This document shows positions 44,045-54,424 of a DNA stretch of 64,000 nucleotides, one piece after another. A program made the translations under genes and the position numbers. The DNA comes from an uncultured Lentibacter sp. (GTDB lineage Bacteria; Pseudomonadota; Alphaproteobacteria; Rhodobacterales; Rhodobacteraceae), in assembly GCA_947497495.1 (NCBI GenBank), contig CANMGT010000004.1, positions 173,730-237,729 on the forward strand. Reading direction: 5' to 3'. The stretch's first letter is position 1. Each line of letters starts with the position of its first letter. Under the pieces are notes generated by a model. It was not told where the DNA came from. It did no database searches and saw only the letters and a program-made list of their open reading frames with translations.

Positions 44045-45766
44045 TCACATCTTGGCAGGAACTTCGATGCCCAAAAGCTCAAGGCCCAGTTTAAGTTGCC
44101 CCTGCGCCGCCGCCAAAAGCCCCAGGTGCGAGGCCGCCACCGTCGGATCAACCCCCTCCGCCAACACGCGGTTTGACTGGTAAAACGAGTTCGTCGCATT
44201 GGCGAGCTTATAGACATGCAGCGCGAGGTTGCTCGGCTTGCGTGTCTCCACAGACCGCGCGAGCTTGGCGGGGAACTCGTCAAGCGTCAGCACCAGAGCG
44301 CGCGCGCCCTCCGTCACCTCGCTGAACGCCGCAGGCGCAAGGCCCACAGCTTTCGCGTTCTCCATCAGCGAGGCAATCCGCACGCTGGTATACTGGATAT
44401 ACGGGCCGGTCTTGCCCTCAAACTGCAAGAACTGCTCCATATCAAAGATATAGTTGCTCTCACGGTCATGGCTTAGCTCGCCAAACTTGATCGCCGCAAT
44501 GGCGATCTGCTCGGCCGTTTCCTCAAGGGCGTCGCCTTCAACGCGGCCCATCTCTTCTAGCCGTGCGCGCGCCGCGGCGTGCATTTCTTCCATCAGATCA
44601 TGCAGGCGCATCACCCCGCCCTCGCGGGTCTTGAAGGGCTTGCCGTCAACCCCGTTCACCGTGCCAAAGGCCGTGTGCTCCAGCACAGCATCGCCGCTCA
44701 GCCCAGTCTGCTGGGCCGCCAGAAACACCTGCTGGAAGTGCATCTTCTGGCGCGCGTCCACCACGTAGAGGATAAACTCGGGGTCATCCGTTTCAACACG
44801 GTCAACAATCGTCGCCAGGTCTGTCGCGCCGTAGCCATAGCCGCCGTTGGAGTTGCGCAGCATCAGGGGCGGCAGCTTCTTGCCCTCCTTGAGGTGCACG
44901 ACAATCGCGCCCTCCGACAGCTCGGCCTCGCCTGCGGCTTCTAGCTTGCTCACAATCGGGCCCAACATGTCCTGATAGCGGCTCTCGCCATAAAAATAGG
45001 TGAACTCGCAGCCAAGCCGGCCATAGTCGCGCATCAGGCTCTCGGTGCTGACGTCAACAACCCGCTGCCAAAGCCGCATGTAGCGCTCATCGCCGGCCTG
45101 CATCGCTGTCGTCGCACGGCGCGCACGGTCGCGGAACGCTTCGTCTTCCTTGCTCTTGGCCGACGCCGCCGGATACCACGCCTGCAAGTCTTCCATCGTG
45201 ATCGGGCTCTTGGCTTCCACCTCAAACAGGTCAGGCCGCACATCCTCAATCTGGCTGATCAGCTGGCCAATCTGCAACCCCCAATCGCCAAGGTGCACAT
45301 CGCTCACCACGTCATGGCCTGCAAACTTGAGCACGTTGATCAAACCATGGCCGACAATCGCGGTGCGCAGGTGGCCCACGTGCATCTCTTTGGCAAGGTT
45401 CGGCCCGCCGTAATCCACCAGAAACTTGCGCGCGTCCTCAAGCGGCGTCAAAGCTCGCGAGTCGGCAGCGGTGGCCGCCACAAGGCCAACCAAAGCCGCA
45501 TCTGTTGCCTTGAAGTTCAAGAACCCGGGCTTCACCACTTCGGCCTCAAACAGCCCGTCAAGCTCAAGCGCGTCCAATACGGCGGCGCCCGCGTTCATCG
45601 GGTTCATCTTCCGGCTCTTGGCCACGCCCATCAAGCCGTTACACTGAAAGTCGGCCAGATCAGGCCTGTCGGACACGCGCACGCCGCCGAATTTGGCGTC
45701 ATAGCCGACGGCCTCGAATGCCGCCAAAACTTTGGCCTGTAATGTGTCAATCAGCGTCTGTGTCAT
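44045..45766 (-). CDS. argS: Arginyl-tRNA synthetase, E. coli-type, complete
   Basis: KFLVDYGGPNLAKEMHVGHLRTAIVG (HIGH), HLGDWGLQIGQLI, FKTREGGVMRLHDL (KMSK-region equivalent of E. coli ArgS), C-terminal DALR-like domain ending LGIEVPAKM. Confidence 0.95.
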   Translation of the reverse strand: MTQTLIDTLQAKVLAAFEAVGYDAKFGGVRVSDRPDLADFQCNGLMGVAKSRKMNPMNAGAAVLDALELDGLFEAEVVKPGFLNFKATDAALVGLVAATAADSRALTPLEDARKFLVDYGGPNLAKEMHVGHLRTAIVGHGLINVLKFAGHDVVSDVHLGDWGLQIGQLISQIEDVRPDLFEVEAKSPITMEDLQAWYPAASAKSKEDEAFRDRARRATTAMQAGDERYMRLWQRVVDVSTESLMRDYGRLGCEFTYFYGESRYQDMLGPIVSKLEAAGEAELSEGAIVVHLKEGKKLPPLMLRNSNGGYGYGATDLATIVDRVETDDPEFILYVVDARQKMHFQQVFLAAQQTGLSGDAVLEHTAFGTVNGVDGKPFKTREGGVMRLHDLMEEMHAAARARLEEMGRVEGDALEETAEQIAIAAIKFGELSHDRESNYIFDMEQFLQFEGKTGPYIQYTSVRIASLMENAKAVGLAPAAFSEVTEGARALVLTLDEFPAKLARSVETRKPSNLALHVYKLANATNSFYQSNRVLAEGVDPTVAASHLGLLAAAQGQLKLGLELLGIEVPAKM

Positions 45767-45891
45767 GCGCTCGCCCTTTGATGCCTTGAAAGTCGCGCTT
45801 TCATAGGCCCAATCGGCGACAAAGGGAACAGCCAATGAAAGCAGCAAAGGCTTCCCCTCGCGGCCCTTTCTCTGCTATCGCAGTCCCCATG

Positions 45892-47064
45892 ATGACACCG
45901 CAAGATATCCTCAACGGCGCAGGGGCCATGGCGAATGTCGAGTTTGTCTCGGCCTACCCCAACCGCCCCTTGAGGGCCGAAGACGCCTATGCCGCCTTCA
46001 CAGGCGACGTGTTGGCAAACCTGCTGACGCATTGTGGCTGGCAAGTCACGCGCGAATACTACGTCAACGACGCAGGCCCGCAGGCCGACGCCTTGGCGCG
46101 CGGCATCTTTGCCCGCCTCACAAACGCCGAGCACTTTGAAGACAGCGAAACAACCGCCATCACAGAAGCCGTGCGCGCCGCCATAGCCTCCGACCTGCTC
46201 CAATCCGGTGAGGAGACATGGCTCCCCGACGTGCGCCGCGCAGCCATCGCCGCTGCGCTCGCCTCGATCAAAGCCGATCTGGCCAGCCTCAACGTGCGCT
46301 TTGATGTCTTCACACCCGACACAAACGTCGCCGCCGAAAGCGCCCTGCCCAAGCTCCTGCAAAGCTTCGCCAGCAAAGGCCTGCTCACCGATGCCTCAGG
46401 TGCACCGCTCGCAGAGGCCCCCGCAAAGCCCACAGGCCGCCTCATGCTTGACACGCCCCAACTGGGCGACGCGCGCAAGCGCCCGCTCACAGGCGCCGAG
46501 GGACGCTACACCTACTTCGCCTATGATCTCGCCTATCACCAGCACAAGCTGGCGCGCGGCTTCTCGCTTCTGGTTGACGTGTTTCGCAAAGACTACGGCA
46601 GTTACGGCCCCGGCCTTGCGGCGGGTGTCAGCGTGATGAGTGCGGGCAAAGCCGAGTTGCAAACCTCGCTGCTTGAGCCGGTGCTTGGCGCGCGCCGCGA
46701 AGATGCCCCGCCCGCTCTGGGCGAGCTGCTCGCTTACTACGGCGCCCAAAGCCTGCGCCGCCTCTACCTGTCCCATGAAGCCGGCACGCCGCTCGAGCTT
46801 GCCTGCGACGCCGACACCAGACAAGCGCTGCAAGCCGCCGAAGACACACATCTCGCGGCCCTCGCCCTGCCCGCGGCCCAAACGCCCGAAGCCCTGCTTG
46901 AAGGCTACGCCGCCGCGCTCAAAGCCAGCATGACAGAGAAAACCCCGCAAAGCCTCATGGCCTATACCGACACGCTCGCAACGGCCCTCACCGAGGCCGG
47001 AGCGGCCTCGGTGAGGGCCAAAGCCCAACTCACACAGTGCCGGCATTTGCTCGGCCTCACCTGA
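45892..47064 (+). CDS. ArgRS-derived protein lacking HIGH and KMSK motifs (putative pseudo-synthetase)
   Basis: ANVEFVSAYPNRPL, TGDVLANLLTHCGWQVTREYYVNDAGPQADALAR, EETWLPDVRRAAIAAALASIKADLASLNVRFDVF, YTYFAYDLAYHQHKLARGFSLLVDVFRKDYGSY, SAGKAELQ all match segments of alphaproteobacterial-type ArgRS; HVGH replaced by RAED, KMSK region replaced by GARREDAPP. ORF also open to an ATG at 45835. Confidence 0.85.
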   Translation: MTPQDILNGAGAMANVEFVSAYPNRPLRAEDAYAAFTGDVLANLLTHCGWQVTREYYVNDAGPQADALARGIFARLTNAEHFEDSETTAITEAVRAAIASDLLQSGEETWLPDVRRAAIAAALASIKADLASLNVRFDVFTPDTNVAAESALPKLLQSFASKGLLTDASGAPLAEAPAKPTGRLMLDTPQLGDARKRPLTGAEGRYTYFAYDLAYHQHKLARGFSLLVDVFRKDYGSYGPGLAAGVSVMSAGKAELQTSLLEPVLGARREDAPPALGELLAYYGAQSLRRLYLSHEAGTPLELACDADTRQALQAAEDTHLAALALPAAQTPEALLEGYAAALKASMTEKTPQSLMAYTDTLATALTEAGAASVRAKAQLTQCRHLLGLT

Positions 47065-47075
47065 AAGAAGCCGCA

Positions 47076-47525
47076 ATGACGCTCACAATCCGCCCCATCC
47101 TAGCCTCGGACCGCGCCGCATGGGGGCCGCTTTTCACAGCCTACCTCGCGTTCTACGAAACATCCGTGCCCGACGCCGTTTACGACACAAGCTTTGCGCG
47201 GCTCATTTCAGGTAAAGACAACGAGTTCAAAGGCTTCATCGCCGAGCTTGACGGCGTTGCCGTGGGCCTCACCCACTTTCTCTATCACCGCCACATGTGG
47301 AGCGAAGCCAACACCTGCTACTTGCAAGATCTCTACGTTGCCCCCGAAACGCGCGGCACGGGCGCTGGCCGCAAATTGATAGAAGCGGTGCACACACAGG
47401 CCGCAAGCGACGGCTGCACAACAGTCTACTGGATGACGCAGGACTTCAACGAGACCGCCCGCAAACTCTACGACCGGATCGCAACGCTGACACCCTTCAT
47501 CAAATACAACAAACCTATCAGCTAA
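47076..47525 (+). CDS. GNAT family N-acetyltransferase
   Basis: LQDLYVAPETRGTGAGRKLIEAVHTQA; NETARKLYDRIA; start 11 nt after the ArgRS-like stop. Confidence 0.88.
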   Translation: MTLTIRPILASDRAAWGPLFTAYLAFYETSVPDAVYDTSFARLISGKDNEFKGFIAELDGVAVGLTHFLYHRHMWSEANTCYLQDLYVAPETRGTGAGRKLIEAVHTQAASDGCTTVYWMTQDFNETARKLYDRIATLTPFIKYNKPIS

Positions 47526-50368: not shown

Positions 50369-50565
50369 CGCGGGCCTGTCCTTGTTTTGGTACGTTCCCC
50401 AGCTTTACGAAAAGAGGGGCCTTCTGCGCAAGCGCCAGCAGGCAGACTGAGCCTGATGGTAAAAACAGTTGCCATCAAGGGTTAACACTCTAAGCTCCCC
50501 CTGTTGCTCCACGCGGATTCTCTGCCTAAGACAAGCCGCGCGATGCCCAAATGATATGCTGGACC

Positions 50566-51354
50566 ATGACCGAAACACCAAATTCAAACAGATCAACCGC
50601 GACGCTCGAAGTTGAGGACCTTCATAAATCATTCGGTGATTTGGAGGTTCTCAAAGGCGTCTCGATGAAGGCCCATGAAGGCGATGTTGTCTCGATCATC
50701 GGCTCGTCCGGTTCGGGCAAAAGCACCTTCCTGCGTTGCATCAACCTGCTTGAATTGCCAACCTCCGGCACCATCCGTTTGAGTGGCGAAGAAGTGAAGT
50801 TCAAGGGCAGCGGGCTTAACCGAGTGCCCTCTGACAAGAAGCAAGTCGCCCGCCTGCGCTCGCAGCTCGGCATGGTGTTTCAAAGCTTCAACCTGTGGCA
50901 GCACATGAACGTTTTGCAGAACGTCATGGAAGGCCAGGTGCAGGTGCTGGGCGTGCCAAAAGCGGAAGCCCGCGAGCGCGCCGAAGCGATCCTTGAACGC
51001 GTTGGCCTATATGACAAACGCGAACAGTATCCGGCGTTTTTGTCAGGCGGCCAACAGCAGCGCGCCGCCATTGCGCGCGCCGTCGCGATGGAGCCGAAAG
51101 TGATGCTGTTTGATGAGCCGACATCAGCGCTTGACCCAGAATTGGTCGGCGAGGTTCTCAAAGTTATTCAAGGCCTTGCCGAAGAAGGCCGCACGATGAT
51201 CCTTGTCACGCATGAAATGAAGTTCGCGCGCGACGTATCCTCTGAAGTTGTCTATCTGCATGAAGGCCGTGTCGAAGAGCGTGGCGCACCAGATGACATC
51301 TTCAACAACCCAACGAGTGAACGCTTTGCCGCGTTCATTCAAAACGCCCACTAG
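50566..51354 (+). CDS. Polar amino-acid ABC transporter ATPase (HisP/OccP type)
   Basis: SIIGSSGSGKSTFLRCINLLE, LSGGQQQRAAIARAVAM, VMLFDEPTSALDPELVGEVL. Confidence 0.93.
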   Translation: MTETPNSNRSTATLEVEDLHKSFGDLEVLKGVSMKAHEGDVVSIIGSSGSGKSTFLRCINLLELPTSGTIRLSGEEVKFKGSGLNRVPSDKKQVARLRSQLGMVFQSFNLWQHMNVLQNVMEGQVQVLGVPKAEARERAEAILERVGLYDKREQYPAFLSGGQQQRAAIARAVAMEPKVMLFDEPTSALDPELVGEVLKVIQGLAEEGRTMILVTHEMKFARDVSSEVVYLHEGRVEERGAPDDIFNNPTSERFAAFIQNAH

Positions 51355-51390
51355 CAAAAAACCAACTCAAAAACCAACCGGGAGACGACC

Positions 51391-52140
51391 ATGAAACTCA
51401 CAACAATCCTTGGCACAGTTGCCGCATTGGCGATCACGGCAACAGCCGCGACAGCCGAAATCAAGATCGGCTTTGCAGCCGAAGCTTATCCGCCCTTTAC
51501 AGCCAAAAATGCGGCGGGCGAATGGGAAGGCTTTGAAGTTGATCTCAAGAACGCGCTCTGCGCTGCGATGGAAGAAGAATGCGTCGTTGTTGACGTGGCT
51601 TGGGATGGCATCATCCCCGCGCTTATGGGCGGCAAGATCGACGCGATCATTGCGTCCATGTCGATCACGGAAGAGCGCAAGAAATCCATCAACTTCTCGG
51701 ACAAGTATTACAACACGCCAGCCGTGCTTGTGGCCCCGAAAGACATGATGATCGATGGCGCGTCAACAGACGGCAAGATCATCGGTGTGCAGGTTTCAAC
51801 CATCCACCAGAACTATGCTGAAAAGCACTTCGCAGGTGCCACGATCAAAACCTACAGCACCTTTGACGAGCACAACCAAGACCTCAACGCAGGCCGCGTT
51901 GATGCGGTTGTCGGCGACTCGATCGCCTTCTCGGACTTCCTCGCGGCAACACCGAGCGTTGAAGTCAAAGCCGAGCTGTCAGACGAAGAAGTCTTCGGCC
52001 CCGGCGTTGGCGTTGGCATCCGCAAAGACGACGCGGCATTGGCTGACAAGTTCAACGCTGCGATCGCCAAGATCCGTGAAGACGGCACATATGAGGCCAT
52101 CGGCAAGAAGTACTTCGACTTCGACATCTACGGCGGCTAA
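51391..52140 (+). CDS. Basic/polar amino-acid ABC substrate-binding protein
   Basis: Signal peptide; IKIGFAAEAYPPFTAKNAAGEWEGFEVDL SBP family 3 signature. Confidence 0.93.
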   Translation: MKLTTILGTVAALAITATAATAEIKIGFAAEAYPPFTAKNAAGEWEGFEVDLKNALCAAMEEECVVVDVAWDGIIPALMGGKIDAIIASMSITEERKKSINFSDKYYNTPAVLVAPKDMMIDGASTDGKIIGVQVSTIHQNYAEKHFAGATIKTYSTFDEHNQDLNAGRVDAVVGDSIAFSDFLAATPSVEVKAELSDEEVFGPGVGVGIRKDDAALADKFNAAIAKIREDGTYEAIGKKYFDFDIYGG

Positions 52141-52201
52141 GCACTCCTTCTTGCGCGTCGGAGCTTTTCGCTTCGGCGCGCCACTTTTCTGATCGGATTT
52201 C

Positions 52202-52915
52202 ATGGAACACGCGCTAGAACTTCTCGCACTGTCGCCCCCCGGCTGGGGCGGTAACTTACTGCGCGGGCTTTGGAGCACATTCCAGATTGCGGCGGGCGCC
52301 TATGCCCTCGGCCTCGCCCTTGGCCTGTTCGGCGCATTCGGCAAAATCTACGGTGGCCCTGTTTTGCGCGGGGCGCTCACAGTTTACACGACAGTCATTC
52401 GCGCGGTGCCCGAACTGGTGCTCATACTGTTGCTTTACTATCTTGGAACCGACTTGCTCAACATGGCGCTCACCTCAATGGGGTTCGAGCGCATGGATAT
52501 CAGCGGGCTTTGGGCCGGTATCTATGTCATCGGCTTTGTGCAAGGGGCCTACTCAACCGAGGTGTTGCGCGGCGCGTTTCAAGCTGTGCCATTCGGGCAA
52601 ATCGAAGCCGCCCGCGCCATTGGCATGAGTGCTTTCAAGTCACACTGGCGCATCATCCTGCCTGCGATGATCCCCTTTGCGCTGCCGGGCTTGGCCAACC
52701 TCTGGCTCATCGCTACCAAGGAGACAGCACTGCTCGCGGTTGTTGGCTTCTCAGAGCTGGCGCTGGAAACCAAACAGGCGGCTGGGGCCACCAAGGCCTA
52801 CTTCATGTTCTACATGGCCGCTGGCGGACTTTACCTCATGCTGTCGCTCGTCTCCACTGGCGTATTTGCTCTGATCGAACGGCGCTCCCGCCGCGGTCAG
52901 CCAACGCAGAGTTAG
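52202..52915 (+). CDS. Amino-acid ABC transporter permease (HisQ/OccQ type)
   Basis: YSTEVLRGAFQAVPFGQIEAARAIGMSAFKSHWRIILPAM EAA motif. Confidence 0.92.
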   Translation: MEHALELLALSPPGWGGNLLRGLWSTFQIAAGAYALGLALGLFGAFGKIYGGPVLRGALTVYTTVIRAVPELVLILLLYYLGTDLLNMALTSMGFERMDISGLWAGIYVIGFVQGAYSTEVLRGAFQAVPFGQIEAARAIGMSAFKSHWRIILPAMIPFALPGLANLWLIATKETALLAVVGFSELALETKQAAGATKAYFMFYMAAGGLYLMLSLVSTGVFALIERRSRRGQPTQS

Positions 52916-52919
52916 TCGT

Positions 52920-53615
52920 ATGGATTGGTCCTGGCTCCCCGAATATCTCCCGCGCTTTGCCGAAGGCCTCTGGCTGACGCTGCAACTTCTGTTTTGGTCG
53001 ATCCTCATCGGGATGAGCATGGCGATCCCGATTGGCCTTGTCCAAGTCACGGGTCCACGCCCGCTGGCGTGGCTCGCGCGCATTTTCACAACCGTCATTC
53101 GCGGCACGCCCCTGCTGATCCAGCTCTGGCTGATCTACTATGGCGTTGGCTCGCTCTTTCCCTCGATCCCCGGCATACGCGAAAGCTTCCTATGGCCTGT
53201 GTTGCGGGATGCTTTCCCCTATGCCGTGCTGGCCTTCTCGCTCAGCGTGGCGGGTTATGAGGGCGAGATCATGCGCGGCGCCTTTCGAGGTGTGCCAAAA
53301 GGCGAGCTTGAAGCCGCCCGCGCCATTGGCATGAGCCCCTTTCAGGTGCTGCGCCGCGTTTGGCTCCCGCGCGCTTTGCAAAACACCTTCCCGACGCTCA
53401 CAGGCGAGTTCATCCTGACGCTCAAAGCCACGCCTTTGGCCGCCACGATCACAGTGTTTGAAGTCTACGGCATAGGTTCGATCGTGCGGCAGGAAACCTA
53501 CAAGATCTACGAACCCCTGCTCTTCGTCGCCGCGATCTACCTCTGCCTCACAGGCATTCTTGTGCTCGGCTTCCGCTATCTCGAAAACCGTATTCCCAAA
53601 CAATCTCGCAGCTAA
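52920..53615 (+). CDS. Amino-acid ABC transporter permease (HisM/OccM type)
   Basis: YEGEIMRGAFRGVPKGELEAARAIGMSPFQVLRRVWLPRAL EAA motif. Confidence 0.92.
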   Translation: MDWSWLPEYLPRFAEGLWLTLQLLFWSILIGMSMAIPIGLVQVTGPRPLAWLARIFTTVIRGTPLLIQLWLIYYGVGSLFPSIPGIRESFLWPVLRDAFPYAVLAFSLSVAGYEGEIMRGAFRGVPKGELEAARAIGMSPFQVLRRVWLPRALQNTFPTLTGEFILTLKATPLAATITVFEVYGIGSIVRQETYKIYEPLLFVAAIYLCLTGILVLGFRYLENRIPKQSRS

Positions 53616-53626
53616 GGCGCACTCTC

Positions 53627-54424
53627 ATGTCCGGTAAATCCTACACCTTCTCGCATGCTATTTCTTTGCAGCCTGCTCACAGCATCACTCAGGGATTGCG
53701 CGCAGTTGATATCGGCATGCCTGATCTTGCCGTCTTCAAACAGCACCACGCTGACTATGTAGCAGCGCTCCGCTCAACAGGGGCGCATGTCGAACTGCTG
53801 GATGCACTGGAAGACTACCCTGACTCAGTGTTTGTGGAGGACGCAGCGCTTTGTTTGCCGGAAGGTGCTATCGTCATGCGCCCAGGCGCGCCCTCGCGGC
53901 TTGGCGAAGCTGCCACCATGGCACCGACCTTGGCCAAGTTTTACGACGACATCCGCACAATCGACGCCCCTGACTTCATTGAGGGTGGAGATATTCTCAC
54001 AACCGAACGCGAGATCCTGGTAGGCACCTCGGCACGCACCACTTCGGGCGGGATCGAAGCCTTGCGCCGCACCACTGCTGACTGGGGCTACACCGTGCGC
54101 GAAGTGGCCACACCCGAGGGCGTTTTGCATTTCAAAACCGACTGCTCGCTGCTTGACGAAGACACCATCCTGTCAACCAAACGTCTCGCAGTCTCGGGGT
54201 GTTTTGAAGGATACAAGGTTTTGAACACCGCCGAAGGCGAAGAGGCCTGTGCCAACACGATCCGCTTTAACGAGTTGGTGATCATGCCTGCCGGCTTCCC
54301 CAAAACCGCCGAAATGCTCGACAAGGCCGGCTACAATGTGCGCGAAGTCGGCAATTCGGAAGCGGCCAAACTCGATGGTGGCATGTCCTGCCTTTCCTTG
54401 CGGTTTTCGCCCCCCTCAGCCTAA
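53627..54424 (+). CDS. Dimethylarginine dimethylaminohydrolase-like amidinotransferase-fold protein
   Basis: DYPDSVFVEDAALCL, FIEGGDILTTEREILVGTSART, LHFKTDCSLL (His), DGGMSCLSLRF (Cys) as in DDAH. Confidence 0.85.
   Translation: MSGKSYTFSHAISLQPAHSITQGLRAVDIGMPDLAVFKQHHADYVAALRSTGAHVELLDALEDYPDSVFVEDAALCLPEGAIVMRPGAPSRLGEAATMAPTLAKFYDDIRTIDAPDFIEGGDILTTEREILVGTSARTTSGGIEALRRTTADWGYTVREVATPEGVLHFKTDCSLLDEDTILSTKRLAVSGCFEGYKVLNTAEGEEACANTIRFNELVIMPAGFPKTAEMLDKAGYNVREVGNSEAAKLDGGMSCLSLRFSPPSA

Follow-up and report, generated by a model that had tools for sequence, protein, structure and literature searches.

The locus described here raises a simple question: why should a genome that encodes a complete arginyl-tRNA synthetase (ArgRS) also keep, directly beside that gene, a second open gene of ArgRS ancestry from which the HIGH and KMSK motifs have gone? 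The window, that is the whole stretch of DNA analysed, comprises 64,000 nucleotides of a contig from an uncultured Lentibacter (Rhodobacteraceae). The locus within it is laid out as follows, the unusual protein being called B.

44045–45766, minus strand: argS, a complete E. coli-type arginine–tRNA ligase (TIGR00456, 387 bits; cut-off 261.65)
45767–45888, no strand: intergenic region common to the divergent argS and B genes, an arrangement kept in 8 genomes
45874–45879: putative sigma-70-like −10 box, GCTATC, near the B start (from sequence only)
45889–47064, plus strand: protein B, a catalytically dead ArgRS core of about 390 residues (from profile and PDB matches and predicted structure)
47076–47525, plus strand: GNAT acetyltransferase (Pfam PF00583, 60.9 bits)

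The open reading frame of B runs from 45835 to 47064 on the plus strand and has 409 open codons, in line with the 390–410 given in a preliminary description of this DNA. The likely start is the ATG at 45889 or 45892, equivalent to the position where the orthologues begin, which gives a protein of about 390 residues. There is an extra in-frame ATG upstream, between 45835 and 45888. The orthologues stop short of this stretch, and automatic annotation may therefore place the start 18 codons too early. Apparent stops in two of the matches (L008 and L058) lie upstream of the start codon and are not in the gene.

The preliminary description proposed that B derives from ArgRS, and the searches bear this out. 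B matches TIGR00456 over model positions 116–350 with 92.9 bits (E = 1.5e-26), well below the curated cut-off of 261.65, and matches the ArgRS structure 3fnr in the PDB with E = 6.8e-19. The AlphaFold2 model of B is confident (pLDDT 93.4, pTM 0.91), and when it is submitted to Foldseek the top six matches are all ArgRS structures, with TM scores of 0.67–0.73 by query length and 3fnr as the best. The model is not independent of the homology, because native ArgRS sequences are present in its input alignment. The core fold of ArgRS is thus present in the predicted structure. Pfam detects neither an Add-1 nor a DALR domain, and the alignments agree with the earlier claim that the N-terminal Add-1 domain is absent and the anticodon-binding domain truncated: the C-terminal domain is cut short, and what is left of DALR is a remnant. 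Compared with the alphaproteobacterial ArgRS described by TIGR00456, B therefore has the descent, the core fold, the connective-peptide region, the arginine side-chain residues and the NDxGxQ block, but it lacks HIGH, KMSK and Add-1.

The positions at which B departs from, or holds to, the native enzyme were located by alignment, and all are on the plus strand.

45940–45942: Glu36 (in NVEFVSA), kept; the acidic residue that binds the guanidinium group in ArgRS
45955–45996: the replaced HIGH region, YPNRPLRAEDAYAA instead of NPTGPMHVGHxRGA
46513–46527: Tyr227-xxx-Asp231 (YFAYD), the guanidinium-binding pair, kept
46591–46617: DYGSYGPGL instead of DHGGYVKRM
46687–46713: GARREDAPP, the sole remainder at the former KMSKR position

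The comparison used a set of eight Lentibacter genomes, two of which (G202 and G203) are apparently identical to two others (G200 and G199). B of G204 is interrupted by contig ends, and seven complete B proteins were compared. The motif replacements first read from the single sequence (VSANP to VSAYP, HVGH to RAED, DHGGY to DYGSY, and the KMSKR segment to GARREDAPP) all hold in the alignments. It is striking that the HIGH region has not simply decayed. Seven residues around HIGH that are invariant in native enzymes are replaced, each by a residue that is itself invariant in all B (N41Y, G44R, H47R, G49E, H50D, R52Y and G53A), so that a new motif, SAYPxRxLR[AG]EDAYAA, is found where HIGH was, with R[AG]ED in 7/7 complete proteins. 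Judged from the alignment, the site has been exchanged and then fixed. The KMSK loop is deleted or replaced in all B. More generally, native ArgRS has 242 invariant columns; in B, 57 of them are unchanged, 24 carry a different, fixed residue and 161 vary. The 57 include Glu36, Tyr227 and Asp231.

In ArgRS the guanidine group of arginine is bound by Asp/Glu-203, Tyr-410 and Asp-414 (numbering of that paper), while both HIGH histidines bind the carboxylate (PMC7387524). Glu36, matched to the structural residue by alignment, is invariant in the seven B proteins and in a related protein from a second genus (G059, described below). Tyr227 and Asp231 are invariant in all B, in the same G059 protein and in a B fragment from a third genus (G100). 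The preliminary description held that every catalytic motif had been lost; this is correct for HIGH and KMSK, but the pocket for the arginine side chain is kept. Since HIGH is exchanged and the three pocket residues are invariant, B has, by alignment, retained the side-chain pocket and lost the reaction site for ATP and carboxylate. B lacks both the SANP Asn and the histidines of HIGH, and with them the grips on the α-amino and carboxylate groups, which makes the ligand uncertain: the affinity of B for arginine may be weak, or the ligand may be another guanidino compound. The three pocket residues can also persist for structural reasons alone.

B is present in all eight Lentibacter genomes, and its frame is open wherever it is complete. 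Its dN/dS is 0.18 (95% CI 0.12–0.24) between G000 and G199, 0.14 (0.09–0.18) between G205 and G201, and 0.27 (0.20–0.35) between G000 and G200, whereas argS shows 0.04–0.07 and the GNAT gene 0.09. More distant pairs were given no weight because dS is saturated. In a neutral simulation at the divergence of B about eight stops were expected, and none of 500 runs gave a stop-free sequence. B is under purifying selection; with orthologues free of frameshifts and dN/dS of 0.14–0.27 in the closer pairs, the description of an intact gene rather than a decaying one stands. In a tree of the core, B forms a single clade on very long branches, and the tree cannot for this reason place either B or the G059 relic. 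In a search of plasmids all matches were ordinary ArgS, with an identity of about 32%.

B and the argS beside it are not close paralogues. The preliminary description had rightly called this argS complete and adjacent: it is divergent from B and 125 bp away, with an ATG at 45766 in a frame open to 45847. It matches E. coli ArgRS (PDB 4oby) with E = 3.5e-97, and scores 330 bits against E. coli ArgRS structures versus 23 bits against 3fnr. For B, as for the family's native ArgRS, the nearest structure is by contrast 3fnr. The genome thus carries an E. coli-type argS, and a profile search of its contigs for ArgRS found no full native argS and one further piece, here called A.

C12:62606–63772 (L006 1468–2634): protein A, a 388-codon open reading frame

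In A, an Add-1 domain scores 50.9 bits and DALR is matched weakly, at 21 bits; most of the core is missing. It is found at the locus that argS occupies ancestrally in relatives, ahead of SPOR, nagZ, scpA and scpB. Orthologues of about 380–400 residues (L038, L039, L040, L082, L084, L085 and L086) mean that A is open in 8/8 Lentibacter genomes, at 31–71% identity. Its dN/dS is 0.26 (0.19–0.34) in the closest pair and 0.18–0.32 in two other pairs, and A is therefore also under purifying selection. The GFxN of Add-1 is kept in all eight genomes. An Asn at an Add-1 position has been reported or proposed to read A20 of tRNA-Arg in bacterial ArgRS (PMC8318970), and we assign the Asn of GFxN, provisionally, to this role. 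A also keeps the DALR elements NPxFxxxYx and PxR, and has no arginine pocket. Its model is confident (pLDDT 91.1) and matches full ArgRS. A segment of A, FAKQGGxFRPGL, was considered as a remnant of KMSK; a wider alignment puts it at DHGGYVKRM, the position of DYGSYGPGL in B, where RPGL is found in most A proteins. A and B lie on different contigs and have no common promoter. On alignment, they retain complementary parts of ArgRS.

The wider distribution was surveyed in 199 Rhodobacteraceae genomes from 198 genera, with one genome per genus and two for Lentibacter. A B query matches 196 of the 199, mostly native ArgRS at 34–40% identity. E. coli-type argS is found in only three of the 198 genera, namely Lentibacter, g60 (G059) and g100 (G100). 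From its type and its rarity, we infer that this argS arrived by transfer and took the place of the native gene. All three genera retain relics of the native argS, fused in one and as two separate genes in two.

L104 1435–2856 (G059): a single 473-codon dead ArgRS at the native argS locus, directly after dgt and before SPOR-nagZ-scpAB
L105 466–1902, minus strand (G100): A-like relic of 478 residues, after dgt (Add-1 62.6 bits, DALR 63.7 bits, no pocket)
L118 1042–1737, minus strand (G100): B-like relic, a 231-residue fragment with YLAAD, elsewhere in the genome and cut by a contig end

The G059 relic contains Add-1, the pocket (EF...TYFAGD) and a C-terminal part; only SASH is left of HIGH, and the KMSK loop is deleted. 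Parts that form one chain in g60 and two chains in two genera would, by the usual fusion argument, be functionally linked. Outside Lentibacter this evidence comes from one genome per genus, of which one is 84% complete and has its B cut by a contig end; a search of the two genera yielded no additional genomes. One end of contig C2 of G100 (L128 6838–6915) resembles the N-terminus of B beside argS, but this is an assembly artefact in which the start of argS is repeated in inverted orientation, and we therefore claim adjacency of argS and B only within Lentibacter.

The idea of a repurposed pseudo-synthetase, put forward in the preliminary description, is supported by the significant ArgRS homology, the open frames and dN/dS well below 1, and yet it is incomplete, as it contains neither the second ArgRS-derived protein, nor the change of argS type, nor the retained arginine pocket. 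The roles suggested there for B are candidates: a sensor of arginine or tRNA-Arg, a partner of ArgS, or a regulator. On the basis of these observations we hypothesise that A and B together are a non-aminoacylating regulatory factor that binds arginine and tRNA-Arg, probably as a complex, derived from the displaced native ArgRS; we put the probability of this at roughly 0.45. In an ancestor of Lentibacter, aminoacylation would have been taken over by the E. coli-type argS, after which the native alphaproteobacterial ArgRS would have lost catalysis and stayed under selection as two proteins. B would contribute the side-chain pocket and the connective-peptide core, with no site for ATP or carboxylate. 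A, having lost the pocket, would supply Add-1, whose Asn putatively reads A20, and the anticodon-binding domain DALR. B may then bind arginine or a similar guanidino compound and A may bind tRNA-Arg, the two acting jointly, perhaps in a complex that restores the outline of the old enzyme without its reaction. The output would be to report the status of arginine or tRNA-Arg, or to modulate the working ArgS, and so to regulate translation or arginine metabolism.

Dead synthetase paralogues are already known. HisZ, a HisRS paralogue that regulates ATP phosphoribosyltransferase (PMC9437257), resembles B in that a dead synthetase core, which may keep its amino-acid pocket, coexists with a working synthetase encoded elsewhere that does the charging; B, like HisZ, is kept by selection. 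B differs in being a class I ArgRS rather than a class II HisRS, in having no evident linked biosynthetic enzyme, in having arisen beside a change of argS type, and in that the tRNA-binding parts are also kept, on the second chain A. B is thus similar to the dead paralogues, although in the loci read, where its only conserved neighbours are argS and the GNAT gene, no partner relation of the kind that defines them is apparent. For A the nearest described family is NrtL (NF045898, ArgS-related anticodon-binding protein), which likewise has Add-1 and DALR and no catalytic domain. A matches this profile over positions 7–322 of 327 with E = 1.4e-26, but the scores (93.7 bits for A of G000, 54.4 for A of G075) are below the cut-off of 340. 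To our knowledge NrtL has no partner core protein. The proteins EpmA/PoxA, GluQ-RS and MshC retain adenylating activity, whereas B has no motifs for adenylation. EpmA/PoxA and GluQ-RS (PMC9437257), and MshC, resemble B as synthetase folds in non-translational use. A review from 2022 on synthetase duplication (PMC9437257) makes no mention of ArgRS; a phrase search of the open-access literature found no dead ArgRS paralogue, and we found there no papers on NrtL or on a bacterial ArgRS paralogue. An ArgRS case is therefore absent from the open literature searched, and it also seems to be new that a displaced synthetase is kept in two pieces, complementary and both under selection.

Several other explanations have to be weighed. 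The first is that A and B are unrelated in function, B being an arginine-dependent partner of ArgS or of the probably co-transcribed GNAT, and A an NrtL-like RNA-binding protein. The two loci and their neighbours do differ, the GNAT gene is downstream of B in 8/8 genomes, and the match of A to the NrtL model extends over its full length; against this, A and B strictly co-occur in all eight genomes, hold complementary parts and appear as a single fused relic in g60, which makes separate functions rather unlikely.

We also think it improbable, if deserving of attention, that A and B are tRNA-Arg chaperones, presenting or proof-checking tRNA for an acquired ArgS that charges at least one native tRNA-Arg poorly. 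It would fit the finding of relics exactly where argS was replaced, in three genera out of three, the retention of tRNA-reading modules in A, and the conserved, putative divergent promoter region common to B and argS. However, it leaves the conserved arginine pocket and core of B unexplained, and argS should have adapted during the lifetime of the genus.

B could instead be a new enzyme in the same fold, with the RxED that replaces HIGH as its active site and arginine or a guanidino compound as substrate. The exchanged site is invariant and not drifting, and class I synthetase folds have become other enzymes, with the CysRS-like MshC among the PDB fold matches of B. We regard this as very unlikely, as B has no nucleotide-binding motif left and there is no conserved metabolic gene cluster beyond argS and GNAT. 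Finally, decay of both genes to pseudogenes with frames open by chance, as might be suggested by evolution faster than that of ArgS and GNAT and by the 161 varying columns of B, is rejected with hardly any reservation, since no B or A has an in-frame stop, dN/dS is far below 1, the new motif is fixed and both proteins have confident predicted folds.

Returning to the regulatory factor that we prefer, there is a broader possibility, offered tentatively and with some doubt: the native alphaproteobacterial ArgRS may itself do more than charge tRNA, in a second function for which the arginine pocket and the tRNA-binding domains are both required. Replacement of argS would have uncoupled this function from charging, and a dead ArgRS, whole in one genus and divided between two complementary chains in two, would now perform it. 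If this is true, the relics would bring to light a hidden role for the ordinary enzyme across the rest of the group. They would be a natural case of separation of function, in which a non-translational role of ArgRS is accessible where translation no longer needs the native enzyme.

The surroundings of B add some detail. The start codons of argS and B are 121–138 bp apart in all eight Lentibacter genomes, which share a CTG[CT]TA box in this region. The −10-like box is about ten bases ahead of the B start, and would give a leaderless message for B. The GNAT gene starts 11 bp past B, and the two are probably on one transcript. Only argS and GNAT are conserved neighbours of B in the loci read. 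Elsewhere in the window, at 50551–54424, there is an arginine-type ABC transporter (substrate-binding protein, two permeases and ATPase) followed by a dimethylargininase-like gene; these were considered as a functional link and set aside, as they are missing from that place in L002. Finally, some survey genomes give irregular native argS matches: G061, G121, G021, G143 and G116 have partial matches below the family cut-off, and G120 has three matches. Contig ends are the most likely cause of all of these. G061 is a 99% complete genome, yet its native argS match is a 335-residue open frame only.
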